DNA of 64,000 bases from Schistocephalus solidus. Taxonomy: Eukaryota; Platyhelminthes; Cestoda; Diphyllobothriidea; Diphyllobothriidae. The notes beneath the pieces are model-generated. The model made no database searches. It saw nothing but the letters and a program-made list of their open reading frames with translations, and was not told the origin of the DNA. Below are positions 3,270 through 59,795 of the stretch, one piece after another. Position numbers and translations under genes: made by a program. The first letter of the stretch is position 1. Each line of letters begins with the position of its first letter. The stretch is taken from NCBI GenBank assembly GCA_017591395.1, contig WEDG01002559.1, positions 62,001 to 126,000 on the forward strand, given 5' to 3'.

Positions 3270-5161
<1,892 letters not shown>

Positions 5162-23890: not shown

Positions 23891-23894
23891 GGAT

Positions 23895-24195
23895 AAAAGT
23901 AATGGCGAAGACTAGGGAGACCAGAATGGCCATTTCTGGCTTAATAGCCGTCATCAGCCGGCCATACCTAACCCCAGGTGTTGCAACCCTTGAGGTTCGG
24001 ACTCGTGACTTGTTGCTTAGACGTCCACGAACAAACCATTGGGCTGCGGGCTCGCTGTCCTGTTGGTTGTGATCGGGTATGTTAACAGTGGTGGTCGAGT
24101 GCTAACCAGTCGCGTTACGGGGCCCTCTCCTCCTGTTCTGCCTTGGGGTTCGCTCTTGAATCCCGCTAGCAGCCGCAGCAGAGCTAGCAGTATAT
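23895..24195 (-). repeat. Hammerhead SINE, minus copy preceded by a second unit's tail
   Basis: Read on the minus strand: a 3' segment of one unit (gctgctagcgggattcaaga ... aaccccaaggcagaacagg), then cccgatcacaacc and the head gcgagcccgcagcccaatgg with a decayed B box, the hammerhead-like segment, and ctccctagtcttcgcc. This is the same head-to-tail order as in the 48.7-kb array, so it looks like a remnant of a tandem dimer. Confidence 0.6.
23919..23963 (-). ncRNA. Hammerhead-like fold
   Basis: Stem I GGCCGG/CTGGTC (six pairs, two wobbles), CTGATGA, stem II GGCT-ATTA-AGCC, GAAA, ATGGCCAT stem III, triplet ATT. Both strands of stem I differ from the array consensus but still pair. Confidence 0.5.
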
Positions 24196-24199
24196 AAAC

Positions 24200-31299: not shown

Positions 31300-32595
<1,296 letters not shown>

Positions 32596-33680: not shown

Positions 33681-33700
33681 TCAGAACCTACGCTCCCCCA

Positions 33701-35194: not shown

Positions 35195-35434
35195 TCAGAC
35201 ATCTTCGAAAGCAATGCACCAACACTCCTACAAACCAAAATTCTACGTCAACTTCTGCCAACCCTCCTTCGGACTCCCCCACCCTCACCCCTGAAATCAA
35301 TTCCATTAGTCTCACCACCATCGAGACCACATCACGATGCTCAGAACGTGTTACCCCCACCGAGAACATCACCACCGGCGCCACCGCCGCCGCCACTATC
35401 ACTACGACCATCAGCGTTGGGGGCTCTATCCTAA

Positions 35435-35935
35435 ACTGTCCTCATTGCGACAACACATTCACCTCACGTGCACGGTCACTTGCGAATCCATCGTACAGAG
35501 ACTGGTGAACCAGTGCCTGGAGCTCCAACACACAGCATAGATCGCCGCCTCCACTGCCCGCACTGTCCTCGCGCCTTCACTCATCCCATGGGCCTATTCG
35601 GTCACATGCGCATCCATGACAGCCGAATTCACCGCAATGCTGACAACACCGGTACCCCATACATACCCTCCGCTCCTGCCATTCTTAGCGCCACCGCCAC
35701 CCCCACTAACATGAATGACACCCCCAGCCTCTTCCGATTTTTCCTGCCCACACTGCGACCGCAAATTCAACTCACGCATCGGCTTGATCGGTCTCCTGAG
35801 AATCAGTCGCAAAGAGGCTGTCGGACCAGCGCCTGGGGCTCCAACATACAGTCGATGTGCCCGCTTCAACTGCCCTCACTGCTCCCTCATATTCACACAC
35901 CGCATGGGCCTATTCGGACACAACCTGCGGTAAAC
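35435..35935 (+). pseudogene. LINE C-terminal zinc-finger region, copy A
   Basis: Finger-like segments are spread over two frames. NCPHCDNTFTSR (35437 on) is broken by a short deletion. CPHCPRAFTHPMGLFGHMRI H (35556 on) is intact. CPHCDRKFNSRIGLIG (35745 on) has lost its last histidine. NCPHCSLIFTHRMGLFGH (35869 on) runs into the stop after NLR. The fingers alternate between an 'RIGLVGHLRIH' and an 'HRMGLFGHMRIH' type. Confidence 0.7.
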
Positions 35936-35972
35936 TACCGGAGGCTAAGACACATCAGCGCACACTACATAC

Positions 35973-36180
35973 GACAGTTCAACCGTCGTAGTCCGACAAT
36001 GTCCACCGTATGCTCCATGGGAAAGTGGAGCAGGGACGGGGACTTGCGCGTGATTTAGTTTAAAGTGATAGTAGACTTGCGCTGCAGCTACCGCTCTCTC
36101 TCCTCCTCCCCACCTGAGCCCGGTGTCAAGACATAGTCAAGAAGATCGGAGGCGGGAGAGGACGAGGTGGCTGGCGCGGC
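35973..36180 (-). repeat. Inverted LINE 3'-terminal module inside copy A
   Basis: Read on the minus strand it gives ccggccgcgccagccacctc, cttgactatgtcttgacacc, gggctcaggtggggagg and ends with the terminal hairpin GACGGTTGAACTGTC (35973-35987). It is therefore a second, oppositely oriented 3' end lying within copy A. Confidence 0.65.
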
Positions 36181-36387
36181 CGGGTCCCCTAAGTCCTAGG
36201 CGCCGCTTAGCGTTCCACCACACCTCCCATGTTCGGCATTTGTTAGCGGAGCGAAACCCCAATAACGCATGCCGTGCCCTGAGGTGGCCTCCGTGTTGGT
36301 CCAACGCATCTACCACGTGGCCCGTTTGGGGGGCCCAACACTACATACACCAATATATAGACAACACCCTTACAATTATCATGTACC

Positions 36388-39300
36388 CGTGAATATCACG
36401 GCCATCTATGGTTCATGTATCAAGGGGAACCGCACCGCTGCTCAGCTCTGACGGCACAACACTGCTGATAGAGAAATCGCAAATTCTGAAGCGCTGGGCC
36501 GAGCACTTCAGCCGTGTCCTTACTTGCTCTTCAGCCATCTCCGATGCTGCCATTGACCGGCTCCCTCAAGTGGACACGAACAATGACCTGGATCTGTCGC
36601 CTTACCTACCAGAAACCATTCGGGCCGTGCAGCAGATTTCCAGCGGTGAAGACCCGGGATCCGACGCAATCCCACCGGAAGTCTACAAGTACGGTGAACC
36701 CCGGCTGATGGCAGAACTCACAACACTCTTCAAGGAGATATGGCGCCAAGGACAAGTTCCTCAGGATTTCAAAGACACGACCATCGTCCATCTCTACAAA
36801 CGGAAGGGGAACCGGCAAATCAGTGATAATCACAGAGGCATCTCCTTGCTCACCATTGCCGGGAAGATCTTTGCCCGTATCCTTCTCAATCCTCTGAACG
36901 GTCACCTAGAGCAGGGCCTGCTCCCGGAAAGCCAATGTGGCTTCCGCAGACACCGCGGAACAACCGACATGGTCTTTGCCGACCGCCAGCTACAATAGAA
37001 GTGCAGGAAATTTGAACTCACCTATACACTACCTTCGTGGATCTTACGAAACCCTTTGACACAGTGTATCGCGACGAACCGTGAAACGTCATGCAGAAAT
37101 TCGGCTGTCCTGAGCGGTTCACGCACATGGTGCGTCAGCTTCATGACGGGATGAAGGCGTGCGTCACTGACAATGGGACGGTATCCGAAGCATTCGCAGT
37201 GACCAACGGAGTGAAGCAGGGTTGCGTTTAGGCTCCCACCCTGTTCAGTCTTATGTTTTCTGCTATGCTGATGGACGCCTATCGTGATGAGCAGCCTGGT
37301 ATCCGCATCGCATACAGAACTGATGGGCACCTTCTCAACAGTCGGCGCATGCAGGCTCCAACGCGCGTGTCTACGACTACAGTCCATGACTTGCTCTTCG
37401 CTGACGACTGCGCCCTTAACACCGGGACGGAGGAAGACATGCAAAGGAGCATGAAGCTCTTTGCTGCCGCCTGTGACAACTTCGCTTATCTAGAGAGCAC
37501 GCTCTCGCGAAACACGAGAATCGATGACGAGGTTGCCCAACGGATCTTCAAAGCTAGTCATGCCTTTCGGCCGACTGCAGGTCTCCGTGTGGAATCGCCA
37601 CGGTATTCCCCTGAACACCAAACTGAAGATGTACGAGGCCGTCGTCTTGATGACCCTCCTTTACGGAGCGGAGACCTAGACCGTCTACTCGAACCAAACC
37701 GGGAAGCTTAATCACTTCCATCTCAGCTGCCTCCGTAGAATACTGAAGCTGAGATGGCAAGATAGGATCCCGGACACGGAAGTCCTGGAGCGGACCGGAA
37801 TCGTCAGCATCCACGTCATACTAAGGCAAGTGCAACTGCGATGGAGCGGTCAGCTGGTAAGAATGGACGATGAGTGACTACCTTAACGACTTTTCTACGG
37901 AGATGTCGCTACGGGTTCTCACCGGCTGGGAGGTCAAAAACGACGCGATAAGTTAACTTTGAATCAATCGCTGAAGCAACTGCAAATCAACCCGGCGACC
38001 TGGGAGGACCTCGCCCAGGATAGACCGGCATGCAGAATATCCGTGAAAACCGGTTCAGCAATCTATGAGGCCAACCGGATCGCCGCCGCAAAGGCCAAAA
38101 GAGCGGTACGAACGTTACAAGCGTCCCGAACCAACACCGCCACTTCCCAGGCCCTGCCAACATGCCTGCGCTGTCAACGCATCTTCCACGCGCGAATCGG
38201 CCTGGTGGGACATCTTCGGACGCAATGTACCAACAATTCGAAAATTCAAACTTCTATGCCAAATTCTGCTAACCCTCCTTCTAACTCCCCCACCCTCACT
38301 CCTGGCATTATTTCCAGTACTCCCACCATCATATAGCCCACACCCTAATACTCATGGCCTGTTACCCCCACCACCGCCTTCACCTTCACTACCATCACCA
38401 CCACCATCAGCGAAGGGGACTCTCTCCTACACCGTCCTCAATGCGACCGCACATTCACCTCACGCATCGGCCTGGTCGGTTACTTGTGAATCCATCGTAC
38501 AGAGACTGGTGAACTAGTGCCTGGAGCACCAACACACAGCAGATATCGCCGCATCCACTGCTCTCTCTGTCCTCGCGCATTCACTCATCGCATGGGCCTA
38601 TTCGGTCACATGCCCATCCATGACAGCCGAATTCACCGCAATGCTGACCACACCGATACCCCATACACACCCTCCGCTCCTGCCATTCTTAGTGCCACCG
38701 CCCACCCCACTACCATGAATGACATCCCCCCAAGCCTCTACCGATTTTTCCTGCCCACACTGTGCCCGCAACATTAACTCGCATATCGGCCTGGTCGTTC
38801 ACCTGCGAATCCATCGCACGGATGGTGAACCAGTGCCTGGGGCTCCAACGTACAGTCGACGCGCCCGCCTCCACTGCCCTCACTGCTCCCTCTCATTTAC
38901 GCACCGCATGGGCCTATTCGGACATATGAGCCTCCACGAAAACCTGCGGTAAGCCACCGGAGGCTAAGCCACATCAGCGCACACTAAATACACCAATACC
39001 TAGACAACACCCTCTTCATTATCATGTAACCATGAATATCACGGTTTCCTAGAAACCGTGGCTGGGAAGGCTGCCAATCTGACGCTTACACCAGACCACG
39101 CCATCGGCCCTGTGTATGTGCTGTGTGTATCGAGTCGCTGACCAGTGCACTTGGAGTCAGGCGGCGATGGCTCCTCCTTATCCCCTGATTAAGTGAATCC
39201 TGATGTGTGCGTTATGGGGCCAGGTCGTGCTGTGGCACGTGAAGTCGGGTATGCCAACCGGTCAGCCAATGCGCCCATTCTCACATCAGACGACTTATCG

Positions 39301-39800
39301 GCTCGGAAGGCCGTTTTTATTCTGAGTGTGGGGGAGAGAGTGAGGTCGACAGCTCAGCGCATTTTCCTCACTATAAACAATCTGACGCGCTTGAAACTAT
39401 CACGGTGCGCTAAAAGCCGTGGCTTGGAAGGTTGCCAACTGACAGGATAACTCGGACCGCATGGTCAGCCCAATGTGTTTTTTTTTGGAGTGACTGACTG
39501 GTGGACTGTGAGTCATTCTGCAATGGCTCCTTCTTAATGTGGCCTTTATGGCATTCCCACTCCGTGAGAACCGAGCCAGGTGTGGTGGTACGTCGAGGGG
39601 TGGCTCCAGCTGCGCCAGCCTCCTGCGCCCTCTGCCATCTCCAGTCTTCTTGACTATGCCATGACACCAGGCTCTGGTGGGGGAGGAGGTGAGAGTGCGG
39701 TAGATGCAGCGCAAGTCAACTATCACTTTAAATTAAATCACGCGCAAGTCACCGTCCCTGCATCCCCCTTTCGTGGAGCATACGGTTAACATCATCAGAC
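36388..39800 (+). mobile_element. Zinc-finger LINE copy B, 5'-truncated
   Basis: Begins in the RT domain (atcacggccatctatggttc, equivalent to 43922 in copy C) and runs through RT, zinc fingers (to about 38950) and the two 3' modules (about 39045-39395 and 39400-39800). About 130 bp downstream of the FADD box are deleted near 37480. It directly abuts copy A, sharing the word atcacgg at the junction. Confidence 0.8.
36408..38952 (+). pseudogene. LINE reverse transcriptase and zinc fingers, copy B
   Basis: The RT starts near [20 protein letters not shown] and reads open to 36998 ([20 protein letters not shown]). A stop (TAG at 36996) and frame changes follow. The FADD catalytic box is preserved ([18 protein letters not shown], 37391 on). 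Further frameshifts occur near 37480 and 37570-37700, and TGA replaces arginine in DDERLP at 37874. Fingers include CLRCQRIFHARIGLVGHL (38166 on), CSLCPRAFTHRMGLFGHM, CPHCARNINSHIGLVVHL and CPHCSLSFTHRMGLFGHM, the last two followed by their histidines, ending LHENLR-stop at 38952. Non-functional. Confidence 0.8.
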
Positions 39801-39809
39801 TACGACGGT

Positions 39810-40580
39810 GACCGCATGATGCGGCGGTCATGCGCATCATCCGGGGTACTCGGGTCGGCCGAGTTTAGAACTGAACAACAGCACATCCTGGGAGGAGTTA
39901 GGGATTCGAAAACGAAGGTATACCCTTTCCCATGTTTAAATTGACTGTCTCTCTATCTTCTCACTACTACCTCCTCTCTATCTGATTAGTTCTCACAGTC
40001 TCTTCTCCATCACTCCCCAGGCAAATTCTTCGTAAGCAACCATTACTTTCCGCACTTGGACGTCTAATTCTGCTTGGCACGTGGGAGATATTGAATGACC
40101 TCCGCTGTGGATGACAGGAAACATAGGAGGGTATTTCAAGATCTAATGTATCTGCTATGTGTTTTGAACTATCGAGTTGTATCAAATTTATGGGGTCCCT
40201 ATTCAGAGGTAGGATTGGGGTATTTAGTATTACCTCCTAAATCTTGCCGATAAACCACTTCAACTCTGGTGAATGAATTGCAACTTGATATTAGTTTCTA
40301 GTTTCCTTGGGAAGGATGTTTGGCGCAAGGAAGTCGAGTGCCTATAATTACTCCATTTTTTCCATCGAGGATCAGAAATCGAAAGTCATTTCCATCGGAA
40401 GGGGTTTCCTATCCTATCGATCCTATCGATCGCCTGACCCCATGATACTGAACCAACCTCCACCACCGGTCTGTGGTAGGGGAGCCGTTCGCATGCTGGA
40501 CAGCGAGACCTGCATCTGTGTTGAACAGTACCATTGGAAAACTCCATGGAGTCTAGTAATACCGGAATAGCGCATGCTTT
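39810..40580. other. No gene seen
   Basis: No motif recognised in this stretch between LINE remnants. Confidence 0.45.
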
Positions 40581-40584
40581 CATC

Positions 40585-40660
40585 CAAATCACGGTAAGCT
40601 GACGCTCATGGTTTGGATGGTCACCAACTGACGGGATAACCCGTTCCCCCGAAACGATAA
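40585..40660 (+). repeat. Isolated fragment of LINE 3' module
   Basis: atcacggtaagctgacgctc, then ggtttggatggtcaccaact, then gacgggataac aligns with the start of the second 3' module of copies B and C (atcacggtgcgctaa ... ggcttggaaggttgccaactgac). No LINE body is attached. Confidence 0.45.
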
Positions 40661-40664
40661 TCAG

Positions 40665-41375
40665 ATTTAAACTGTTCCCTAATGTGACCCACAAGGGAAA
40701 GTTATTCATTAGGACGCAGGGGAAACTGATTTACAGCCTCGTTTGTGTGTCAAAATCATCGCATGTTTGGCCCCCGTAGACGCAGGTCTGCCCATGTCGC
40801 CCAACCATGGCTTTTCGGTCGTTCGTCCTTGTTTTGCCATTTGCACACAGTAATTGTGAGGGGAGGAGGGTGGCATATGCTGAAAATTTCTTCCTCACAC
40901 GTTAGTTAACAGTATTCTATGAGGATGGTGATCATTTTAATCAAACAATGAAACTGCGGTTCATGCACCAACTCCTGGCCTCTCCGACTCATGAACCCAT
41001 CATTACTCGACAGTTAGGTTCATGAAAACAGAAAATAACACACAGGTACTGAACTGTGGCAACAACTACCAAATCACCCACCAATGGAGTTGTATAAGGT
41101 GCTATATCTGCATATTGGCACTCACTACAATCAATCAGAAAATTAGGTTGGTTTAATTACAGTACGGCTAACGCGTGCTGAAAGCGAATGACCTCACACA
41201 GAATTCCGTCAGCGGATGCATACAAATATGAGATGAGAGACCAAACCGCATTGAGGCCAAATTTTAGCAAGTACTCTTTAATATCTAGCCTGTCTTGGAG
41301 GCCGTCAGCCGCCTTCTCATGGAGTTGCGGTTGAACTCGGACTGGAGCAAATCATCAGGCACCAGGAAATTCGAA
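40665..41375. other. No gene seen
   Basis: No motif recognised. Part of this stretch may be the 5' side of the GIY-YIG relic that follows. Confidence 0.4.
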
Positions 41376-41379
41376 CAAA

Positions 41380-41690
41380 ATACCCACTGGCAGTGCAGGA
41401 AAAGTCTGGAGTTGGTTGCCTCATTTTATGCAGCCTAAGGCAAAGCATCTACGTTGGAGAAACTAGGAGGTGGCTCTGAATGTGCATATCAAGACACAGT
41501 GCGGAGGACTGACGCCAAACCTCAAGTCACGGCTGATTCGTCGACACCTGACTACGATTTCAAGTTCGATCAGTCCAAAGTTCTCGTGAGAGATAGCAAA
41601 TGCATCAGTCGTTAGTAGCTTAAATCATGGTTATCTGGCCCGCAGTTTCTCAACAAACGTAACGATTTCCCCTTCGTATTCTGCGCCAAG
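41380..41690 (+). pseudogene. GIY-YIG domain relic, Penelope-like
   Basis: The plus strand reads SGVGCLILCSLRQSIYVGET then RRWL, a GIY-YIG-type 'C...YVGET.R.L' signature. After a frame change and stops it continues DYDFKFDQSKVLVRDSKCIS, two stops, LKSWLSGPQFLNKRND. This pattern (F.FD...VL.R...) follows GIY-YIG in many flatworm Penelope-type proteins. No RT part is seen upstream. It is a different subfamily from the 18-kb element. Confidence 0.55.
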
Positions 41691-41699
41691 AAAAGGCCT

Positions 41700-42080
41700 A
41701 CCTGGGTAGAGTGATTAGTAACATGGGAAGCCAAATTTCTTAGTCGTTATCGCGTCCGCCATCAAAATCGCTACAGTTTTTGACTCGATGCCTTCAATCA
41801 AGCAGTAATCGCCCCAAATATTAACACCCTCGAGGAATGCTGGAGTTGGTAGTTTGGGGACAGTTGGCTACTTCACATTTGTATTGTTGAAATAACGCAC
41901 CCCATGTGCTTCCGCCACCAGTACCTGTTGCTGCCACTGGCGAAGGCTTCGACTGTAAATTTGAAACCACGGTTGATCCTCCTTAAGTACGGCCTCCTGA
42001 AATCCAATTTTCTCTTGCATCGGCAACCTCCAACTATCTCCAGCTACTTGGTTCGTTGAATAGATGAAGGTTGTTGTCAC
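41700..42080. other. No gene seen
   Basis: A 70-codon minus frame (41868-42080) has no recognised motif. Confidence 0.35.
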
Positions 42081-42084
42081 GGGG

Positions 42085-42670
42085 TGAAGGGGTACTAGTT
42101 AGGGGTAGCACCACACAGATAGCATTTGGTCGTTCCATTTGTCTCGTACAGGTGGTGAATGCTCCTGTGGCCGCCTCTAACTGGTACCGAACTCTCCCCT
42201 GTGGCTCCTCGAAGTTGGGTTCTTCCCAGCGGCCACACCCCGGGCAACCGTCACGACCGGCGGGCTAAACCAGGTGAGGGTCTCCGGTGTTGTGTGTACC
42301 TCCACACCTGGTATGTCTGACTCCCGAACTTCCCACCTCCCCCCCTCTCAAAAAGTCCTATCGTGGGGGCGACAGCAACCCCGTAGGTGGCCCAGGCTAA
42401 CTCGGGTCGGTCTCCCACTAAAACAAAACCGTGACCCATAGTGGAGTTCGGCAGCCGTCTGGGATGTCCGAGCAGCCATATTTAGGGATAGCACTGCTTG
42501 CCTCCTCGCGGGGGAAGGGGCTAGAAAAGGTGCCCTAAACAAATGCTGGTTATCACGTCTTCTGCAGCCGGCCGTGGCTCACAGCTCGCAAAATACGCGG
42601 TCGTAAAACTCAAACAAACAACAATATCCCCCGTCCCAATTCCCCTTGCCATACCCTCCAGGCTGCTCGG
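42085..42670 (+). promoter_or_regulatory. LINE 5' leader
   Basis: A GC-rich leader without a convincing frame. Its last part (from gctcgcaaaatacgcggtcg) is repeated in copy D at 8.12 kb, which proves it belongs to the element. LINE internal promoters normally lie here; no specific element was identified. Confidence 0.5.
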
Positions 42671-43078
42671 TTGAGTCCACTCACACTAGCAGCCTGGAAT
42701 GATCGTTCCCTTTTAGACAATCCTAGGAGCGACCAGCCGGAACGGAGGATGGCGCTAGTCCCTCGGGAACTGGCGCGTTACAAGGTGGACATTGCTGCTC
42801 CCAGCGAGACCAGATTCTCTGAGCAGGGTCAGCTGGAGGAGGTGGGTGCCGGCTACACCTTCTTCTGGAGCGGCCAGCCAAAGGCAGAGCGACGCGACGC
42901 TGGTGCTGCCTTTGCCATCCGGAAGGACATCGTGGGACGTCTGCCCTGTCTGCCGCAGGGTATCAATGATCACCTGATTAACCTCCGCCTGCCTCTTCGG
43001 CGACACCAGTTCGCCACCATCATCAGCGCCTACGCTCCCCCAATGACGAGCTCTGATGTGGCGAAGGACAAATTCTAA
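42671..43078 (+). pseudogene. LINE AP-endonuclease, N-terminal part, copy C
   Basis: The frame runs from [16 protein letters not shown] through [18 protein letters not shown] (the E of the ETR motif is a catalytic metal ligand) to [21 protein letters not shown], then meets TAA at 43076-43078 where copy A has TAC. The following frame is in register, so one base change separates the two halves. The domain would nick target DNA to prime reverse transcription. Confidence 0.85.
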
Positions 43079-43084
43079 GAGGAC

Positions 43085-44752
43085 TTGCATGCCCTGCTGG
43101 CGACAGTGTCGAAGGTGGACAAGTTAATTGTCCTTGGTGACTTCAACGCCCGCGTCGGGACGGACCACGCTGCCTGGCAGGGAGTGCTGGGTCCCCACTA
43201 TCTCGGTAGCTGTAACGATAACGGCCTCCTTCTTCTACAAACCTGTGCGGAACACCGTCTCATGCTGACCAACACCTACTTCCGCCTTCCGACGCGGGAG
43301 AAGGCCACGTGGATGCACCCTCGGTCGCGGCGCTGGCAGCTGCTGGACTATGGTCTCGTCCGGAGGCGAGATCGACAGGACGTGCTGGTAACCAAGGTGA
43401 TCCGCGAAGTCGATGGTTGGACAGATCATCGCCTCCTCATCTCCCAGATGAGGCTCCGACTGCAACCCCGACGAAGGCCCCAAAGTAAGAGGCCACCAGG
43501 TAAGTTAAATAATATTTTATTAAATTTGCCTGCTCACTGTTTTGATTTCAGAAACCTAATAACTGAGAAACTAGAGGACCTGCATGCTCCAGCTAATCAT
43601 GCTACCGTGGAGACACGATGGTGTCATCTGCGAAATGTCATCCAGTCCACCGCCCTCGAGGTCCTCGGACGCGCACGCCGTCAACACCAGGACTTGTTTG
43701 ACGACAATGGCGCCGACATCAGTAAATTACTCGCGGAGAAGAATGGACTACACAAAGCCTACATGGACCTTCGGACTGACGCCACCAAAGCAGCCTTTTT
43801 CAGATGCCGGCGCCTTGTACGGCAACGGCTGCGGGAGATGCATGATGCTTGGATGATTCAAAAGTCTGATGAAATCCAGGAGTATGCGGACCGCAATGAA
43901 ATAAAAAACTTCTCCAAAGCCATCACGGCTATCTATGGTCCGTGTATCAAGGGAACCGCACCGCTGCTCAGCTCTGACGGCACAACACTGCTGATAGAGA
44001 AATCTCAAATTCTGAAGCGCTGGGCCGAGCACTTCAGAAGTGTCCTTAATTGCTCATCAGCCATCTCCGATGCTGCCATTGACCGGCTCCCTCAAGTGGA
44101 CACGAACAATGACCTGGATTTGCCGCCTTCCCTACCAGAAACCATCTGGGCCGTGCAGCAGATTTCCAGCGGTGAAGCACTGGGATCCGACGCAATCCCA
44201 CCGGAAGTCTGCAAGCACGGTGGGCCCCGGCTGATGGCAGAACTCACAACACTCTTCCAGGAGATATGGCGCCAAGGACAAGTTCCTCAGGATTTCAAAG
44301 ACACGACCATCGTCCAACTCTACAAACGGAAGGGGAACCGGCAACTCTGTGATAATCACAGAGGCATCTTGTTGCTCAACATCGCCGGGAAGATCTTCGC
44401 CCGTATCCTTCTCAATCCTCTGGACGGTCACCTAGAGCAAGGCCTGCTCCCGGAAAGCCAATGTGGCTTCCGCAGACACCGCGGAACAACCGATTTGATC
44501 TCTGCCGCCCGCCAGCTACAAACGAAAAGCCAGGAAATACGAACTTACCTATACACTACCTTCGTGGATCTAAAGAAAGCCTTTGACACGTTGAATAGCG
44601 GCGGACTGTGGAAAGTCATGCATAAATTCGGCTGTCCTGAGCGGTTCACGCACATGGTGCGTCAGCTTCATGACGGGATGAAGGCGTGCGTCACTGACAA
44701 TGGGACGGTATCCGAAGCATTCGCAGTGACCAACGGAGTGAAGCAGAGGTTG
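43085..44752 (+). pseudogene. LINE endonuclease C-terminal part and RT, copy C
   Basis: Continues the endonuclease with [13 protein letters not shown] (catalytic D intact) and [12 protein letters not shown] (terminal DH motif). It passes [17 protein letters not shown] and reaches the [42 protein letters not shown], and motif [14 protein letters not shown] (44558-44596). Near 44745-44752 one extra base turns the VKQGC motif B into VKQRLRIG and shifts the frame; the true continuation is the frame starting at 44757. Copies A and C share this region closely. Confidence 0.85.
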
Positions 44753-44756
44753 CGTA

Positions 44757-45521
44757 TTGGCTCCCACCCTGTTCAGTCTTATGTTTTCTGCTATGCTGAT
44801 GGACGCCTATCGTGATGAGCAGCCTGGTATCCGCATCGCATACAGAACTGATGGGCACCTTCTCAACAGTCGGCGCATGCAGGCTCCAACGCGCGTGTCT
44901 ACAACTACAGTCCATGACTTGCTCTTCACGGACGACTGCGCGCTTAACACTGGGACGGAGGAGGACATGCAAAGGAGCATGGACCTTTTCGCAGCAGGCT
45001 GCGCCGATTTTGGATTAACAACCTGTACAGCCAAAACGGTTGTCATGCACCAGCCACCACACAGCGCGGAATACAATGCTCCTCAAATCAATGTCAACGG
45101 TGCTCAACTCAAAAACGTGGAAACCTTCGCTTATCTAGGAAGCACGCTGTCACGCAGCACGAGAATCGATGCCGAGGTTGCCCAACGGATCTCCAAAGCT
45201 AGTCAGGCCTTCGGCCGTCTGCAGGCCTCTGTGTGGAATATCCACGGTATTCACCTGAACACCAAACTGAAGATGTACAATGCCGTCGTCTTGACGACCC
45301 TCCTTTACGGAGCGGAAACCTGGACCATCTATTCGAACCAAGCCAGGAAGCTGAATCACTTCCATCTCAGCTGCCTCCGCAGAATTCTGAAGCTGAGATG
45401 GAAAGACAGGATCCCGGACACGGAAGTCCTGGAGTGGACCGGAATCCGCAGCATCCACGCCATGCTGAGACAAGTGCAACTGCGATGGAGCGGCCACTTG
45501 GTAAGACTGGACGACGAGTGA
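44757..45521 (+). pseudogene. LINE RT C-terminal part, copy C
   Basis: Begins [16 protein letters not shown] after the frameshift. The catalytic box is [11 protein letters not shown] (44920-44950), with T where copy B has A. It continues [36 protein letters not shown] and [18 protein letters not shown], and ends at TGA 45519-45521, where the next codons (LPERFFYGDVATG) remain open in the same frame. The stop replaces an arginine codon through CGA to TGA. Confidence 0.85.
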
Positions 45522-46600
45522 CTACCCGAACGTTTTTTCTACGGAGATGTCGCTACGGGTTCTCACCAGCAGGGAGGTCAAAAACGACGCGACAAGGACA
45601 CTTTGAAGAAATCGCTGAAGCAACTGCAAATCAACCCGGCGACCTGGGAGGACCTCGCCCAGGATAGACCGGCACGGAGAATATCCCTGAAGACTGGTGC
45701 AGCAATCTATGAGTCCAACCGTATCGCCGCCGCCAAGGCCAAAAGAGCGGCACGAAAGTCACCAGCGTCCCGGACCAACATCATCGATGCCCAGGCCCTA
45801 ACAACATGCCCGCGCTGTCAACGCATCTTCCGCATGAGAATCGGCCTGGTTGGACATCTTCGGACGCAATGCAGCAGCGATCCGACAATTCCAATTTCTA
45901 CGTCAAATTTTGCCCACCCTCTTTCTGACCCCCCACCCTCACTCCTGGCATTATTTCCAGTACTCCCACCATCATATAGCCCACACCCTAATACTCATCG
46001 CCTGTTACCCCCACCACCGCCTTCACCTTCACTACCATCACCACCACCATCAGCGAAGGGGACTCTCTCCTACACTGTCCTCAATGTGACCGCACATTCA
46101 CCTCACGCATCGTCCTGGTCGGTTACTTGCTAATCCATCGTACAGAGCCTGGTGAACCAGTGCATGGAGCTCCAACAGACAGCATAGATCACCGCCTTCA
46201 CTGCCCGCCCTGACCTCGCGCATTCACTCATCGCATGGGCCTATTCGGTCACATGCGCATCCATGACAGCGGAATTCACCACAATGCCGACAACACCGAT
46301 ACACGATGCACGCCCTCCACTCCTGCCATTCTTAGCGCCACTGCCACCCCCACTACCATGAATGACATCCACCCAGCCTCTTCCGATTTTTCCTGCCCAC
46401 ACTGCGCCCGCAACATTAACTCGCATATCGGCCTGGTCGGTTACCTTCGAATCCATCGCACGGAGGCTGGTGAACCAGTGCCTGGGGCTCCGACATACAG
46501 TCGACGCACCCGCCTGCACTTCCCTCACTGCTCCCTCACATTTCACACCGCAAGGGCCTATTCGGACATATGCGCCTCCACGACAACCTGCGGTAAACCA
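45522..46600 (+). pseudogene. LINE zinc-finger tail, copy C
   Basis: Linker LKQLQINPATWEDLAQ, basic segment [15 protein letters not shown], then five finger positions. 1: CPRCQRIFRMRIGLVGHL ending in C, a C2HC type. 2: 46076 on, CPQCDRTFTSRIVLVGYL in another frame, first histidine changed to tyrosine. 3: 46200 on, second cysteine replaced by a stop, HRMGLFGHMRIH intact. 4: about 46390, CPHCARNINSHIGLVGYL. 5: about 46520, first cysteine changed to phenylalanine and a frameshift. A proline/serine/threonine-rich spacer separates fingers 1 and 2. The fingers may bind nucleic acid during integration. Confidence 0.75.
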
Positions 46601-46604
46601 CCGG

Positions 46605-47446
46605 AGGCTAATCCACATCAGCGCTTTATACCTACAACAATACATAGACAACACCCTCACAATCACCATGTACCTGAGTATATCATGGTGTCCTAGAGAC
46701 CGTGGCTGGGAAGGCTGCCAATCTGACGCTTACACCAGACCACGCCGTCGGCTCAGTGTATTTGCTGTGCGTGTCGAGTCGCTGACCAGTGAACTGGGAG
46801 TCAGACGGCGATGGCTCCTCCATACCCCTTGAGTAAATAAATCCTTGTGTGTGCGTTATGGGGCCAGGTCGTGCTGTGGCGCGCGAAGACGGGTACGCCG
46901 ATCCGTCAGCCAATGCGCCCACTCCCACATCAGGCAACTGACCGGCTCGGACAGTGGTCTTATGGTGGGGGTGGGGGAGAGATTGAGGTCGACAGCTCAG
47001 CGCATTTTCTTCACTATAAACAATCTGACGCGCTTGAAACTATGACGGTGCGCTTAAAGCCGTGGCTTGGAAGGTTGCCAACTGACGGGATAACTTGGAC
47101 CGCATGGTCAGCCCAATGTGTGTTTTGTGTGGAGTGGCTGATTGGCGGACTGTGAGTCAGGCTGCAATGGCTCCTTCTTAATGTGGCACTCCCACTACGC
47201 CCGAGCCAGGTGTGGTAGTACGCCCAGGGGCGACTCCGGCCGCGCCAGCCACCTGCGGCCTCTCCCATCTCCGGTCTTCTTGACTGTGTAATGACACCAG
47301 GCTCAGGTGGGGGAGGAGGAGAGAGTGCGGTAGCTGCAGCATAAGGTTTCTACCACTTAAAACTAATTCACGCGCAATTCACCGTCCCTGTAGCATCTGT
47401 TGTGGAGCATACGGTGGACCTCGTCGAAATCGACGGTCAAACTGTC
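46605..47446 (+). repeat. LINE 3' untranslated modules, copy C
   Basis: Two diverged versions of one module. The first starts at about 46700 (ccgtggctgggaaggctgcc), the second at about 47060 (ccgtggcttggaaggttgcc). Each leads to a '..ggtgggggag..gag' stretch followed by gcagcgc or ctcagcgc. It ends in the hairpin GACGGTCAAACTGTC. Confidence 0.65.

Positions 47447-48602: not shown

Positions 48603-48669
<67 letters not shown>
48603..48669. repeat. (TA)n tract bounding the SINE array
   Basis: A pure TA run at the left edge of the array. Similar runs interrupt or end the array at 49705, 51070 and 51450. Confidence 0.95.
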
Positions 48670-48672
<3 letters not shown>

Positions 48673-48809
48673 AGTGTGGGGCTCACCGATCTGCTTAAGG
48701 AACATGTATGTTCCGTTGTGCCCTGGAGCTCAGACTAGAGCCCTCGCAGGCGGTCGCATAGCGACGTGTAGCATATGTTGATTAGGTGGAACCGACAAAA
48801 GACAAGGGA

Positions 48810-48854
48810 GACCGGAATGGCCATTTCTGGCTTATTAGCCGTCATCAGCCAGTC
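48810..48854 (-). ncRNA. Hammerhead-ribozyme-like fold, array unit 1
   Basis: Minus strand, 45 nt. Stem I GACTGG with CCGGTC (six pairs, one U-G). Core CTGATGA. Then C, stem II GGCT-AATA-AGCC, A, and GAAA. Stem III lies in ATGGCCAT, either two pairs closed by GGCC or a four-pair duplex between two molecules. The next base is T, giving cleavage triplet ATT, followed directly by the 3' strand of stem I. All invariant core positions (CUGANGA, GAA, A15.1-U16.1, H17) are met. The weak points are a C-A mismatch where natural hammerheads have a pair at 10.1-11.1, and the very short stem III. Confidence 0.6.
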
Positions 48855-48870
48855 ATACCCAATCCCAAGT

Positions 48871-48944
48871 GTGGCACACCTGGGATTCGAACCCGCAACC
48901 TTTGGTATTTGAGTCGAACGCTCTACCATTGAGCCACGGGCTCG
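48871..48944 (-). repeat. tRNA-like head of array unit 1
   Basis: A-box region TGGCTCAATGGTAGAGC with a perfect GCTC/GAGC D stem, and B box GGGTTCGAATCCC. The anticodon region is too long and unpaired, and the acceptor stem does not form. The same head precedes each further ribozyme segment. Confidence 0.7.
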
Positions 48945-49115
48945 TTGTTTTTGTCGGTTGTGATCGGGAATATGATGATAGTGTGGGGCTCACCGATCTG
49001 CTTAGGGAACATGTATGTTCCGTTGTGCCCTGGAGCTCAGACTAGAGCCCTCGCAGGCGGTCGCATAGCGACGTGTAGCATATGTTGATTAGGTGGAACC
49101 GACAAAGACAAGGGA

Positions 49116-49160
49116 GACCGGAATGGCCATTTCTGGCTTATTAGCCGTCATCAGCCAGTC
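49116..49160 (-). ncRNA. Hammerhead-like fold, unit 2
   Basis: Identical to unit 1 over all paired and core positions. Confidence 0.6.
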
Positions 49161-49424
49161 ATACCCAATCCCAAGTGTGGCACACCTGGGATTCGAACCC
49201 GCAACCTTTGGTATTTGAGTCGAACGCTTTCTACCATTGAGCCACGGGCTCGTTGTTTTTGTCGGTTGTGATCGGGAATATGATGATAGTGTGGGGCTCA
49301 CCGATCTCGCTTAGGGAACATGTATGTTCCGTTGTGCCCTGGAGCTCAGACTAGAGCCCTCGCAGGCGGTCGCATAGCGACGTGTAGCATATGTTGATTA
49401 GGTGGAACCGACAAAGACAAGGGA

Positions 49425-49469
49425 GACCGGAATGGCCATTTCTGGCTTATTAGCCGTCATCAGCCAGTC
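49425..49469 (-). ncRNA. Hammerhead-like fold, unit 3
   Basis: Identical to unit 1 over all paired and core positions. The next unit to the right (about 49594-49704) is truncated before its ribozyme and ends in a sequence mirrored at 51144-51180. Confidence 0.6.
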
Positions 49470-49700
49470 ATACCCAATCCCAAGTGTGGCACACCTGGGA
49501 TTCGAACCCGCAACCTTTTGGTATTTGAGTCGAACGCTTTCTACCATTGAGCCACGGGCTCGTTGTTTTTGTCGGTTGTGATCGGGAATATGATGATAGT
49601 GCGTGGCTCACCGATCTGCTTAAGGAACATTTATGTTCCGTTGTGCCCTGGAACTCAGACTAGAGCCCTCACCTATAGTCCCCTGAGATCGCCTTTTTCT

Positions 49701-49704
<4 letters not shown>

Positions 49705-49762
<58 letters not shown>
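49705..49762. repeat. (TA)n tract inside the array
   Basis: It separates truncated unit 4 from unit 5. The flanking words (cgcctttttcttctc on the left, gatagtgtgggggctcacc on the right) recur in reverse around the tract at 51070-51143. Confidence 0.95.
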
Positions 49763-49765
<3 letters not shown>

Positions 49766-49903
49766 AGTGTGGGGGCTCACCGATCTGCTTAAGGAACATG
49801 TATGTTCCGTTGTGCCCCTGGAGCTCAGACTAGAGCCCTCGCAGGCGGTCGCATAGCGACGTGTAGCATATGTTGATTAGGTGGAACCGACAAAGACAAG
49901 GGA

Positions 49904-49948
49904 GACCGGAATGGCCATTTCTGGCTTATTAGCCGTCATCAGCCAGTC
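49904..49948 (-). ncRNA. Hammerhead-like fold, unit 5
   Basis: Identical to unit 1 over all paired and core positions. Confidence 0.6.
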
Positions 49949-50212
49949 ATACCCAATCCCAAGTGTGGCACACCTGGGATTCGAACCCGCAACCTTTGGT
50001 ATTTGAGTCGAACGCTCTACCATTGAGCCACGGGCTCGTTGTTTTTTTGTCGGTTGTGATCGGGAATATGATCATAGTATGCGGCTCACCGATTTTCCTT
50101 AGGAACATGTATGTTCCGTTGTGCCCTGGAGCTCAGACTAGAGCCCTCGCAGGCGGTCGCATAGCGACGTGTAGCATATGTTGATAAGGTGGAACCGACA
50201 AAGACAAGGGGA

Positions 50213-50257
50213 GACCGGAATGGCCATTTCTGGCTTATTAGCCGTCATCAGCCAGTC
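50213..50257 (-). ncRNA. Hammerhead-like fold, unit 6
   Basis: Identical to unit 1 over all paired and core positions. Confidence 0.6.
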
Positions 50258-50517
50258 ATACCCAATCCCAAGTGTGGCACACCTGGGATTCGAACCCGCA
50301 ACCTTTGGTATTTGAGTCGAACGCTCTACCATTGAGCCACGGGCCGTTATTTTTCGTCGGTTGTGATCGGGAATATGATGATAGTGTGGGGCTTACCGAT
50401 CTGCTTAGGAACATGTATGTTCCGTTGTGCCCTGGAGCTCAGACTAGAGCCCTCGCAGGCGGTCGCATAGCGACGTGTAGCATATGTTGATAAGATGGAA
50501 CCGACAAAGACAAAGGA

Positions 50518-50562
50518 GACCGGAATGGCCATTTCTGGCTTATAAGCCGTCATCAGCCAGTC
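50518..50562 (-). ncRNA. Hammerhead-like fold, unit 7
   Basis: Stem II loop is TATA instead of AATA (GGCT-TATA-AGCC); otherwise as unit 1. Confidence 0.6.
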
Positions 50563-50884
50563 ATACCCAATCCCCAAGTGTGGCACACCTGGGATTCGAA
50601 CCCGCAACCTTTGGTATTTGAGTCGAACGCTCTACCATTGAGCCACGGGCTCGTTGTTTTTGTCGGTTGTGATCGGGAATATGATGATAGTGTGGGGCTC
50701 ACCGATCTGCTTAAGGAACATGTATGTTCCGTTGTGCCCTGGAGCTCAGACTAGAGCCCTCGCAGGCGGTCGCATAGCGACGTGTAGCATATGTTGATTA
50801 GGTGGCTCAATGGTAGAGCGTTCGACTCAAATACCAAAGGTTGCGGGTTCGAATCCCAGGTGTGCCACACTTGGGATTGGGTAT

Positions 50885-50929
50885 GACTGGCTGATGACGG
50901 CTAATAAGCCAGAAATGGCCATTCTGGTC
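50885..50929 (+). ncRNA. Hammerhead-like fold, inverted unit 8
   Basis: First plus-strand unit after the inversion. Stem I is GACTGG/CTGGTC, six positions with two U-G pairs; core and other stems as unit 1. Confidence 0.6.
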
Positions 50930-51066
50930 TCCCTTGTCTTTGTCGGTTCCACCTAATCAACATATGCTACACGTCGCTATGCGACCGCCTGCGAGGGCTC
51001 TAGTCTGAGCTCCAGGGCACAACGGAACATACATGTTCCTTAAGCAGATCGGTGAGCCCTCACACT

Positions 51067-51069
<3 letters not shown>

Positions 51070-51143
<74 letters not shown>
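51070..51143. repeat. (TA)n tract in the inverted part
   Basis: Mirror counterpart of the tract at 49705-49762, with the same flanking words in reverse. Confidence 0.95.
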
Positions 51144-51147
<4 letters not shown>

Positions 51148-51373
51148 AGAAAAGGCGATCTCAGGGACTATAGGTGAGGGCTCTAGTCTGAGTTCCAGGG
51201 CACAACGGAACATACATGTTCCTTAAGCAGATCGGTGAGCCCCACACTCTCATCATATTCCCGATCACAACCGACAAAAACAACGAGCCCGTGGCTCAAT
51301 GGTAGAGCGTTCGACCCAAATACCAAAGGTTGTGGGTTCGAATCCCAGGTGCGCCACACTTGGGATTGGGTAT

Positions 51374-51418
51374 GACTGGCTGATGACGGCTAATAAGCCA
51401 GAAATGGCCATTCCGGTC
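51374..51418 (+). ncRNA. Hammerhead-like fold, inverted unit 9
   Basis: Last unit of the array. Stem I GACTGG/CCGGTC and all core positions as in unit 1. The head just upstream (51287-51356) is intact. Confidence 0.6.
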
Positions 51419-51446
51419 TCCCCTTGTCTTTGTCGGTTCCACCTTA

Positions 51447-51449
<3 letters not shown>

Positions 51450-51525
<76 letters not shown>
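51450..51525. repeat. (TA)n tract at the right edge of the array
   Basis: A pure TA run directly following the last unit (ttccaccttaatca). Confidence 0.95.
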
Positions 51526-55629: not shown

Positions 55630-56680
55630 GTTATTTATTGAATTAAAGACAGTTTGCAAAGTTAAGTAGCTCAAATGAAAGGGAAATCTGTTGAGGTAAA
55701 CCTATGAAGTATCTATAGGTGCACTGTAAGTCTTCATAGTTTTATTTTCCGATTTTTCGTACACAAAAACTGGAAATATTCTGTTCCGCTTTCTGCGTCT
55801 TTTTAAATAAAAAAACCCATTTTTATCGACAACCTTCTTATCAAAGGAAAAAATATCCCTAAAAGCTTTTAGGCTTATAGCCTGTTTTGCAAATGGCTCT
55901 TATGCTTTGCCTAGCAGTCATTCGCTGCTCTGCTTGCTCCAGAACGATAAAAGAGGAGCTGCTTTCCAAAAACAAAAACTTAAAATTATTTTCTGTAAAA
56001 TAAAAAGTAACCAACCGTTTTATGTAACATTGCAGTTGATTCTACTTTGAGTATTTTTTAAACCAAAAATGTAGGTAATACGGTACATAGTCCTAATACA
56101 TGTCTAAGTGCTTTTAGAAGTCTTCCTGCCTATGTTTTACGAGAGACTTTTTTTTCGCGCGGGAACCCCTTTTGACATTAGAAGCTTTTTATACGTGGAG
56201 GTAAGAAGGTGATCTCCTAGGCGATTGTTTCTGGTTACGAAAACGTCTCCAGCACCGCGACGTTCATCCTCCAGACGACCGCTCCAGAAAAAGACCTACC
56301 CTCGTTTTGAGAAACAGGTTTCGCTTTGTGTGCGACAATGCCCACAATGCAACGAGGCGGTTCGCTAATGACCAGAGCGGTCCCCCTCTCTGATCAGGAG
56401 CCCGTCTGAATGTCTAAGCGAGACCGGATATTCTAGGTTATGAGAGTGGGAGAGCCCACCCTGATGAAAGGGTGATTAATGGAGAAGAGGTTTATTTTAT
56501 TTGATATGTCGACTACAAGTTCGGTGTCAGGTATTCACCGTCAGACTGAAGACGCTCCAGTCAGTGTCAAAATACTTCTATGTAACCGACACCTTCCAGA
56601 TGCAATTTACTTTTAGGCCACCATACTTATTGAGACCAGGAGGAGGGAGGATGAGATGGGGGTGGACTTATTCGTGGCTC
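55630..56680. other. No gene seen
   Basis: No motif recognised. Confidence 0.5.
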
Positions 56681-56682
56681 AA

Positions 56683-56905
56683 TGGTTAGAGCGCTGGGCT
56701 TCTGATCAAAAGGTCGCGGGTTTGAGCCTTGGGTGGTGCACAACCTGGGGTTGGGTATGACTAACTGATACCGGCTAATGAGCCAGAAGTGGCCGTTCCA
56801 GTTTCCCTCGTCTTTGTTGGTAATGGTACTCTGCTCATAATACTAGCCTCTGTTTGTTTGCTGGTGGGGCTCAAGAATTAACCCCAAGGCAGAACGGGAC
56901 GAGGG
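56683..56905 (+). repeat. Hammerhead SINE, longest dispersed copy
   Basis: Head gtggctcaatggttagagcg with B box gcgggtttgagcc; body ggtggtgcacaacctggggt through ttccctcgtctttgttgg; 3' part actagcctctgtttgtttgc and ggggctcaagaattaacccc ending ggcagaacgggacgag. It shows the standard order of the dispersed subfamily, whose 3' part differs from that of the array units. Confidence 0.7.
56759..56803 (+). ncRNA. Decayed hammerhead-like segment
   Basis: Aligned with the array segment. Stem II GGCT-AATG-AGCC is intact, but the core is CTGATAC instead of CTGATGA and GAAG instead of GAAA, and stem I has two mismatches. Expected to be inactive. Confidence 0.45.
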
Positions 56906-56909
56906 ATTT

Positions 56910-59795
56910 CCGTTATCTATCGGGGAATGTCCATCAACAAATTATCATCTGTTTGTGTTCCTCCTCATCAGTCGTAAAGCAAGCGTCCGGCAAGACGGGG
57001 CTGACAGCATCCTTCCACCCTAATACTATATTCTCTTCGACGATGAGAAAGGTGCCGAATGTGTCATTGCTACCTGTGGTGTTGGAAGACCAGGGACTCC
57101 AGTCGTTAGAGGACCGCCTTGCCTATGTCTCAACAGTCGGTGAACCCATTGGTTTGCCTTTATGTTCACTGAGAATTCTCTGCAGATGAAGTAACTTTTG
57201 GACGTGGTCATGACAATTCTCGCTGTATTGCATTTGTTTTTCAGTTGTATTTCGACGTTCTTGACTGTCGAATTGTAGGGCTCAGAAGTAAACAGAAACG
57301 GGACATAAAATAGATGCCATAACCTCGTGTGGCAAATAACTTGCCTTTTTTCTTTGCCCGTATAATTTTGTTGACGAGTTTTACTGTGATGTCTGAACGA
57401 GCAGTCATAAAGCTGATTCGCCTAGAGTACAAACTGGTCGACCCGTAAGGGTAGTGCCTTTGAGTGAGTCGACGATCGAACGGGAGTATCTCCTTTTTGC
57501 ACCCAGAAAAGGTCATAGACCTTGACCTCACATGATGCACACGTTGATCGAAAAATATACAGCTGAGGTGTCCACTGTCAACAGCTCTGTGTAACGCGCC
57601 GTTCTTTTGCTTAACTAGACAACCAGGAATAGCCCAACATGCAGTCCCGTCTGTCCTGAACCGTTGACCTGAGCGTATTGCGTGTTGCTCTCCAAACGAA
57701 CTGCGCCACTGTTATGAGGAGCAAAACTGGGATCACATTGGCTCCTGGTTTAACTAATTCGGGTCACATTAGGGCTGTTTTATAGCTTGACTGCTACCAT
57801 AAATGAGTGTAACGCGCCACATTAGCTGCAACACCCAGTTCAACGACTTATTTCCTTGTTACTGGGACATGGGAGTGGGAGGAAGATACTGAGACCAACT
57901 TAATCCGTAGCAGGACGTGCATTTCATGAGTAAAAACAATCGCACACTTAAGAAATTACAATATGCTAATATTTGCAGCTTGGGCATTTTCCCACCGCTA
58001 GGATAACCCGGGTATCCTCTGCCCTGAGGGTCAGGATGCAAGAGCTCTTCCTCAATTTGACTTTTAAAGCAACCCTTCATGGTTATGGATTCAGACCACC
58101 CATCGGAAAGCACGCCCCCTATAGAGTCAGGGTGGAGGTAGCGCGTAGCACTCCTAGACAGGCTATTATTTTTGTTTAACGACTGCACTCATAGCTCATC
58201 ACCAGTATTTCTGAATTTGTCCTGATGGTCGAATACGATGGGAACGGTGTCCGAAAGTGGGAGATTTCGCATTAGTCAATTTCACTTTAAACAGCTTCAC
58301 TCTAGCATAGTTGTGGACCTCATCGTTTGCCAAGGTGAGCTGTAACGTATATACATGCTTCTAAGATCTTCTTAATTATAAAGCTTCTTAAAATAAACAG
58401 CTTAGTTTAACATCCCTAGAAATCGTCAACCTGGAAACGCAAAAACGACAAAACCTCCTTCCGTTTCACTCGAAAGAACCCTTCTAAAAAGTCACTTCCC
58501 CCTTCCTCACGTTTGAGTAATTTAGGCTACGTTATTTAAGAGCTAGCATACTCCACCAAACCAGTCCTTTCGGTAAATACGTCATCGGAAAAATCGTAAG
58601 ACTGTGGGCACTATACATTTTCCTTGCAAACCTACACTTTAACTTCTTCTAATTAATCATGAAGCTGGCTATTCGCACACATAGGCGAACGAAGAAATCA
58701 CTCAAGCCCTGCCAGAATAGCCCTCAACATTTTTGCGAATTTAAGTGGATAAAACCCGGAATTTTCACTGTTCACTCACAAGACAGCAATTAAAGTTGAA
58801 TGTTACAAAAACTGTAACCCGCGCATGTGTTTGTGCACGCTGACATCAGACAAAAACAGACCCTTACCCCGTCCCAAAACCCTGACTGTGACATGCCTCC
58901 AAATGTAGCAGGGAAGGATAGTGGAGAATTCCGCTTATTGCGGTATAATCTCCAATATCCGGGTTTGGTTGGACTTGTGATGTGTTTTTACTAGATATCA
59001 CAGTGAACAGACAGGTCCAGGGTGCGACCTTCGACTGCGTTTCTTTTTAATCCCAATGCACCGGCTAAACAGGAAGAGTCCCTGACCTACAAGAAGCAAT
59101 CCTCAAAAATACAGGTTTGGTTGGCAGGGCCGCTAAATTCCACTGACAAGAAACAGCCAGAAGTCTACTGTGGTTTGTGTTTGAACATTTTTTGATTTCA
59201 ATTAGGCAGCCCATATAAATAGCATGTATAAATCGATACACACCTACCGCACGCAGACTCATGCAGTTATGATGCGGGCTGCAGCTTTATTGTGTTCTTT
59301 ATAATTAAGTGGGAAACGAAAAGTATTTTAACGAAATCGGAAAGGTCATTAGTGCCACAGGCACCTGTCCACTGCCGGTGCCGGAACTAAAAATTCCGGG
59401 CCAATTTATTGCGCCAGCTCATATTCAAGATATCAGCATTAGACGTTTAATGAACCATTACTGTTTATCTAACCCTCTCGAAGTACTCCAACAACTTTAT
59501 TAAGACAGGATACTTTCTACTTAAAACGTCTTCACTGGTTACCAATGTTGAGCAAAATCATATTGCGAACGTTCTTCGGAGTATCCAAGCCGGAAGGGCG
59601 ATGCCCAGTATGATATTTACGAGTAAATAATCGGCTAGAGATATGCTGGAGCGATGGCGAAAAAATACTTTCCATCTCCGCACAAGGTGAGAGGTGCGCT
59701 GTTACAGGAAGGGGAAAATCTCGAATTGTAGCTGCTACCCAGCAAGTTCCGGCTACCGCGACATTACTCGCCGCCGCTCTGTCTCCAGGCGCTAA
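56910..59795. other. No gene seen
   Basis: Frames of about 100 codons (57241-57540 and 57859-58188, minus; 56854-57189, plus, partly SINE) contain no motif I can identify. Confidence 0.4.

Follow-up and report, generated by a model that had tools for sequence, protein, structure and literature searches.

A tRNA-headed tandem repeat with a hammerhead-like module in the genome of the tapeworm Schistocephalus solidus

A repeat of about 306 nt in the tapeworm Schistocephalus solidus, whose units carry a 45-nt segment laid out like a hammerhead ribozyme, raises the question of why this segment is kept, and whether the repeat is multiplied through the cutting of its own RNA. The repeat was studied in a stretch of 64,000 nt (the window; positions 62,001 to 126,000 of contig WEDG01002559.1, assembly GCA_017591395.1), which lies within contig C2124 of the genome examined (604 Mb, 8,019 contigs). 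An original prediction made from the letters of the window had described a tandem array of transfer RNA (tRNA)-derived short interspersed nuclear elements (SINEs) whose full units each fold into a hammerhead. The observation behind it was confirmed by the analysis presented here, and its interpretation was partly supported. The segment is best described as hammerhead-like, not as a proven hammerhead, and its self-cleavage is predicted from the sequence.

Eight segments are located in the array, six on the minus strand (48810–48854, 49116–49160, 49425–49469, 49904–49948, 50213–50257 and 50518–50562) and two on the plus strand (50885–50929 and 51374–51418). When the window was searched with a 33-base core pattern containing one free base, with up to three mismatches allowed, 10 matches were obtained against 0.00 expected (100 shuffles). 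Eight of these were in the array and had no mismatch (48816, 49122, 49431, 49910, 50219 and 50524 on the minus strand, 50891 and 51380 on the plus strand), in agreement with the eight segments predicted. The core C3U4G5A6N7G8A9 ... G12A13A14 is present in 8/8 array segments, which are identical in it; a single loop base differs (50524). All eight further contain stem II GGCT/AGCC, GAAA, the self-complementary ATGGCCAT and ATT immediately 5' of the stem I strand. Six positions of stem I are paired in each of them, its 3' strand being CCGGTC in seven and CTGGTC at 50891. By sequence, stems I and II thus comprise 6 bp and at least 4 bp, and stem I is extended by an outer GGG/CCC helix; the fold as drawn has a predicted internal loop UAU/U and a predicted stem II loop AAUA. 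The pair A15.1–U16.1 and an NUH triplet, AUU, were found in 8/8 array segments. AUU is a slow cleavage triplet. Among 140 distinct copies from the genome, 100 have the full core together with A15.1, U16.1 and a non-G base 17.

For comparison with chance, a descriptor (CTGANGA, GAA, A15.1–U16.1, non-G base 17 and paired stems) was scanned against the window and against 100 random 64-kb sequences generated by a first-order Markov model. The relaxed form, which forgives the first stem II pair, gave 10 window matches, all in copies of the array repeat, and a chance mean of 0.02 (largest value 2). The segment pattern is therefore not a chance product. With the first stem II pair required, a single window match remained (chance 0.03), at 6503 in an old diverged copy on the plus strand (6458–6558) in which this pair, 10.1–11.1, is U-A.

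The tRNA-like head predicted to go with each segment was recovered by covariance matches to RF00005. On the minus strand, the heads of segments 1 to 6 scored 27.2 bits (48875–48943), 19.8 bits (49181–49251), 23.4 bits (49503–49561), 27.2 bits (49969–50037), 29.4 bits (50275–50345) and 27.2 bits (50584–50652); on the plus strand, those of segments 7 and 8 scored 27.3 bits (50801–50867) and 28.2 bits (51292–51348). One head, that of segment 5, is above the gathering threshold (29.4 vs 29), and the rest range from 19.8 to 28.2 bits. No tRNA was called in the array heads by ARAGORN. From these matches, the array units appear to carry a tRNA-like RNA polymerase III promoter head, from which they may be transcribed. 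A protein look-up of the reading frame through the module gave no match. Dispersed copies exist, as expected of a SINE, yet they have two alternative 3' ends in place of one defined 3' tail. For the related genus Spirometra, the genome paper reports 4% SINEs and names no families in the part of its text available (PMC4265353).

The repeat is abundant. A genome-wide count with the 33-base pattern and five free positions gave 22,437 exact matches (11,479 + 10,958) and 0 for the reversed control. More diverged copies exist (4,988 first-look candidates, 40 of them scored) and include an array with a period of 304. Genome stretches were fetched for copies of the repeat (L-numbered loci below), and 77 such loci and the window yielded 213 monomers, reduced to 143 distinct units that form three clusters (102, 27 and 4 units) and ten singletons. 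The periods in the window are 309 and 306 nt, close to the predicted unit of ~307 nt; across arrays they range from 304 to 309, and L073 is a 10-kb stretch consisting of units throughout. The repeat thus forms tandem units of the retrozyme type (~150–450 bp, dimers to large multimers).

Between the three subfamily consensuses, the third of which was built from four units of a single locus, the module differs at 2/45 sites in each pair. The corresponding differences are 19/70, 17/70 and 15/72 sites for the tRNA-like head and 44/117, 46/109 and 33/115 sites for the 3' section. Fisher tests, whose subfamily pairs are not independent, gave p values of 1.1e-4, 1.8e-5 and 1.3e-3 when the module was set against all other parts of the unit, and of 0.001, 0.004 and 0.011 when it was set against the head alone. 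Judged by these consensuses, the 45-nt segment is better preserved between the three subfamilies than any other part of the unit; badly changed modules are under-sampled, because copies were found through head and module. Three module sites vary between subfamilies, namely N7 and two stem I sites at which G-U stands for A-U. N7 is a free position in hammerheads.

Mutation events were counted in 239 of 243 non-redundant segments, with four too distant ones dropped and one event scored per contig and letter. The 11 core positions carried 67 events, compared with 107 expected from base-matched draws within the segment (p=0.00085) and 84 when draws were made from the flanks only (p=0.037). Few sites of the segment were changed as rarely as U4, A9, A13 and A14. 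Genome-wide, copies altered at one A and otherwise matching the core pattern were counted for five sites, array copies not being independent: 249 copies were changed at A9, 156 at A13 and 119 at A14, each below both non-core counts (473 at the stem II loop A and 335 at the A of the AUU triplet). Conservation and lower mutation load together speak for a constrained, putatively hammerhead-like core.

How copies arise was approached through the ends of 72 copies, counted in unit positions from C3 of the core. Thirteen overlapping loci were excluded from this sample, strongly truncated copies are missing from it, BLAST ends are approximate, and L012 and L016 share flanks and represent one event counted twice. 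The 3' ends cluster at two sites, 39/72 at positions 60–88 and 25/72 at 160–190 (64/72 in total); one of the two sites is shortly 3' of the segment. The 72 visible 5' ends fit a uniform spread round the unit (Kolmogorov–Smirnov p=0.79). Most ends of the young subfamily, at either 3' site, run into (AT)n, which was found mainly in that subfamily. A template without a fixed 5' end would be a circle or a multimer, and the end pattern suggests that, as in retrozymes, circular or multimeric RNA is reverse-transcribed. In at least nine loci, two arms meet at their 5' ends and point outward with their 3' ends (50797/50802 in the window, L005, L013, L023, L029, L044, L052, L071 and L077). Such joined arms look as though target-primed reverse transcription had begun on each side of a break, by analogy with the twin priming known from L1 biology. 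Some arrays are homogeneous and have private variants (13 private columns in L063, 8 in L071). At L045:1232–2165, units of two subfamilies are joined via a short (TA)n tract, as could result from template switching or nested insertion.

Taken together, we give close to an even chance, though somewhat below it, to the following reading: the locus holds a tRNA-headed repeat of ~306 nt whose hammerhead-shaped module cuts multimeric transcripts into units, which are then circularised and reverse-transcribed into tandem copies. This reading starts from the core, the subfamily conservation, the copy number, the period, the two 3' ends and the spread 5' ends, all of which were observed. From them we infer transcription, self-cleavage, ligation and copying by a long interspersed nuclear element (LINE). 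Transcription would start from the tRNA-like promoter. Self-cleavage by one copy alone would probably be weak and would improve on pairing of two copies via the stem III palindrome AUGGCCAU. Unit-length RNAs would be joined into circles by a cell ligase, and a LINE reverse transcriptase would copy them from a start at either of two AT-rich sites. When two module strands were co-folded, a double hammerhead was predicted, with stem II formed within and stems I and III between the strands; its ten-pair stem III also joins A14 to U17. The RNA is predicted to be strongly self-paired: one array unit folds at -114.9 kcal/mol, vs -87.4 kcal/mol in 100 shuffles (z -5.4), and 62–66% of bases are paired in circular folds of the three consensus units. 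Read by eye, the subfamilies seem to differ by compensating changes in 3'-section hairpins and in a helix between the leader and the 3' strand.

A number of results weigh against the cutting-and-copying reading, and several concern the pair 10.1–11.1 that closes stem II. A Watson–Crick pair at this place, normally G-C, is a defining feature of hammerheads, and the usual state here is C.A, which was found in 200/243 segments (U-A in 22, C-G in 6) and in 90/100 genome places listed (7 U-A, 2 A.A, 1 C-G). It is common to all three subfamily consensuses, and G-C occurred in 0 copies with the near-intact pattern genome-wide. Site 10.1 also has more changes than any other site of the segment (28 events). 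Its C is mostly replaced by T (25/33 non-C letters), giving a U-A pair, and a CpG effect is possible. In natural hammerheads, 10.1–11.1 is described as the most conserved pair after A15.1–U16.1, and a natural U.U reported at this place allows more cleavage than other mismatches (PMC3088659, Perreault et al.). With C.A at 10.1–11.1, cleavage should be slow, so that a weak, dimer-assisted ribozyme is favoured over a fast one. Of the hammerhead fold originally predicted, the core, stems I and II and ATT were upheld, whereas the C.A closing pair had gone unmentioned. Because this defining feature fails, the segment is not classed as a member of the hammerheads; equally, where a retrozyme would have a canonical type I hammerhead per unit, the repeat has the module with a non-canonical closing pair.

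Model searches and folding, two of the checks proposed with the original prediction, also turned out unfavourably. With filters relaxed, not off, Rfam returned no hammerhead family at E<=10 on the array or on a 61-nt piece; four copy-bearing loci, like the array, gave no hammerhead whether the threshold was the gathering one or a relaxed one. RF00163 was absent from the repeat among the genome candidates scored (73/91,055). RNAfold favoured a GCCA-GAAA-UGGC hairpin inside stem I in 2/3 sequences and a hairpin similar to CUGGCU/AGCCAG in the third, with pair probabilities of 0.42–0.54 for stem II and 0.30–0.46 for the rival GCCA-GAAA-UGGC hairpin. CUGGCU/AGCCAG was also favoured by RNAalifold on an alignment of 20 units, in which 5/48 predicted pairs were changed on both sides. 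Four of these are outside the module; the fifth (columns 176–247) links the 3' strand of stem I to the 3' section, a pairing in competition with stem I. When stems I and II are imposed on a two-core transcript, the cost is 5.3, 7.1 and 12.0 kcal/mol. Among the 140 distinct copies, stem pairing was not in excess over independence, and the common pair-keeping changes in the hammerhead stems were one-sided G-U forms. Two core sites, C3 (12 events) and G8 (11 events), were not low in mutation events. None of the 72 3' ends is at the predicted cut (positions 31–36), so that the usual template is not a cleaved linear monomer. Finally, several arrays mix differing units, which a single circle alone does not explain: L073, L064, L075 and the minus-strand array of L077 are heterogeneous, have variants common to other arrays and show 0 private shared columns. 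An origin of the arrays from circles only was weakened by these mixed arrays.

Three other explanations were weighed against these data. If the segment were a conserved ordinary RNA hairpin, bound for instance by the reverse transcriptase or another protein, its likeness to a hammerhead would be coincidental, and the hairpins preferred by RNAfold and RNAalifold, the covarying pair that competes with stem I, the 3' end site shortly behind the segment, the missing Rfam match and the constancy of C.A in the three consensuses would all be in place. We regard this as fairly unlikely: A13, the second base of a GNRA loop, should vary freely in such a hairpin, yet its count of changed copies is below those of both non-core A sites; U4, A9, A13 and A14 belong to the least variable positions; and chance seldom yields all core bases with correct order and spacing. 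The low counts at A9, A13 and A14 bear equally on a hammerhead by descent that lost catalysis at 10.1–11.1 and is conserved for its fold or for the structure of a circular RNA, since these bases should then have been freed. Such a loss, which we consider quite unlikely, would fit the C.A closing pair, the lack of G-C in near-intact copies, the intact state of every other core base and the presence of U-A in 22/243 copies, yet not as the master form.

An explanation without any RNA step holds that the arrays are tandem SINEs amplified at the DNA level by unequal exchange, with the ribozyme-like segment uninvolved. The heterogeneous arrays and the joining of units of two subfamilies in the L045 array agree with it. 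It does not predict that copies of about one unit start anywhere and mostly stop at two sites, nor does it sit well with the private variants of the homogeneous arrays L063 and L071, and we judge it improbable. Returning to the cutting-and-copying reading, its fuller form is a tapeworm SINE-retrozyme with >22,000 near-intact modules, in which a natural hammerhead with AUU, and with C.A where a G10.1–C11.1 pair is considered essential, would cut as a paired double hammerhead, giving circles of ~306 nt that would be copied from two start sites, often at both ends of a break at once, to build inverted arrays. This fuller form is advanced tentatively and regarded as doubtful.

The parallels named in the original prediction, the schistosome Sm-alpha repeat and animal retrozymes, held up on comparison. 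The Sm-alpha and Sj-alpha repeats were reportedly described by Ferbeyre in 1998 and Laha in 2000. Sm-alpha carries A and B boxes, and its pair 10.1–11.1 is G-C. Compared by description, these flatworm repeats are likewise SINE-like and of type I layout (~335 bp vs ~306 here), whereas the Sm-alpha hammerhead is active and the segment studied here has C.A and AUU (PMC8490949). The W elements of Schistosoma mansoni are also hammerhead-bearing repeats, and their stem III is very short; in vitro cutting is reported for three tested candidates, and the hammerheads of both Sm-alpha and W are active. They differ in being schistosome satellite families, also autosomal, for which the main text consulted does not mention tRNA (PMC8490949). 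Animal retrozymes are described as tandem ~300-bp repeats with type I hammerheads that are made as circular RNA, and platyhelminths are named among their hosts; the main text does not mention cestodes, nor do its relevant passages mention a tRNA-like head (PMC7229834). Like the present repeat, the non-LTR retrozymes of animals form tandem arrays, ranging from dimers to large multimers, of ~300-bp units with one hammerhead-type motif each; strong self-pairing of the RNA, predicted for the tapeworm repeat, and a weak palindromic stem III as in salamanders are further likenesses (PMC7229834). The tRNA-like head and C.A set the tapeworm repeat apart, and its RNA circles and its cleavage are predictions. 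In axolotl retrozymes, the loop of the weak stem III is palindromic, and dimers are the more active form. Among them, HHR_Amex2 shares a stem III of two pairs capped by a tetraloop, and its stem II likewise has a mismatched basal pair, U.U there and C.A in the putative ribozyme described here (PMC7229834). In our view, the tapeworm repeat would operate in the manner of these elements, as a hammerhead-like variant. Among the papers listed by literature searches by sequence fragment and topic, in a collection without most subscription papers, none was on a cestode hammerhead repeat.

Within the window, the tandem arrangement claimed for the array was borne out in its two periods but is not one simple run, as the array is partly inverted and broken up by (AT)n tracts. 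Sub-array A (48664–49670, minus strand, period 309) consists of three full units and part of a fourth; a (TA)n tract (48603–48669) adjoins its 3' end, where the repeat ends in ...CACTATC before (AT)n. On its 5' side is a 35-nt stretch (49671–49705, minus strand), of which BLAST identified a second, inverted copy (51144–51176, plus strand). Behind an (AT)n tract (49705–49762), sub-array B (49757–50797, minus strand, period 306) is the left arm of the 5'-5' inverted pair, and its right arm (50802–51075, plus strand) again ends in ...CACTATC before (AT)n. A further (AT)n tract (51070–51143) is followed by the second copy of the 35-nt stretch and by the last array piece (51176–51453, plus strand), whose 3' end is at the other site, ...GTCGGTTCCACCTTAATC before (AT)n, with the tract itself at 51450–51525. 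The locus as a whole (48603–51525) resembles one large palindrome made of two nested inverted pairs with (AT)n tracts between them. Besides the copy at 6458–6558, old diverged copies were found at 16478–16700 (minus strand), 17178–17423 (plus strand, core CTGACGA), 23882–24212 (minus strand) and 56672–56942 (plus strand, damaged core).

Other mobile elements are present in the window. A reverse transcriptase fragment on the minus strand (18204–19605; RVT_1 in 18931–19602) overlaps a frame resembling a GIY-YIG nuclease, in which Pfam found no family; by reading, the two look like the remains of a Penelope-like element. Minimal hammerheads are usual in elements of this kind (PMC6155905). Rfam found no hammerhead anywhere in the window, including this fragment. 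At least two LINE copies were recognised by frame reading on the plus strand (33647–46832). Pfam identified RVT_1 in the LINE frame 43079–44812 and no family in the frame 33647–35191, which is 61–75% identical to 120 listed proteins of 1,830 found. All 120 belong to Spirometra, Sparganum or Schistocephalus, with no near-identical match among the matches listed, so that this mobile element points to a diphyllobothriidean tapeworm as the likely host. The window LINE is a candidate source of reverse transcriptase for the repeat; against this, BLAST showed no stretch common to the LINE region (33647–46832) and the repeat. The window also contains perfect long microsatellites, (GA)n at 4010–4181 and (CT)n at 32366–32594 (172 and 229 bases). 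Elsewhere in the genome, weak RF00163 matches were obtained at L039–L042 (21.5–24.4 bits vs a cut-off of 34) and were rejected as copies of the module, which is in none of the four loci. The match at L039:1501–1574, in a stretch without the module, is a sub-threshold Rfam type I hammerhead match of 24.4 bits.

If the module cuts, hammerhead-bearing retroelements would reach tapeworms, at very high copy number, and the closing-pair rule of the core would be broken; the thousands of natural variants in one genome would then amount to a mutational scan of a ribozyme that nature has already made. Should the module not cut, the repeat would be a warning that a perfect-looking hammerhead core may be kept for reasons other than cutting. 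In both cases, the idea of circular templates for tandem retroelements becomes testable through the end pattern.

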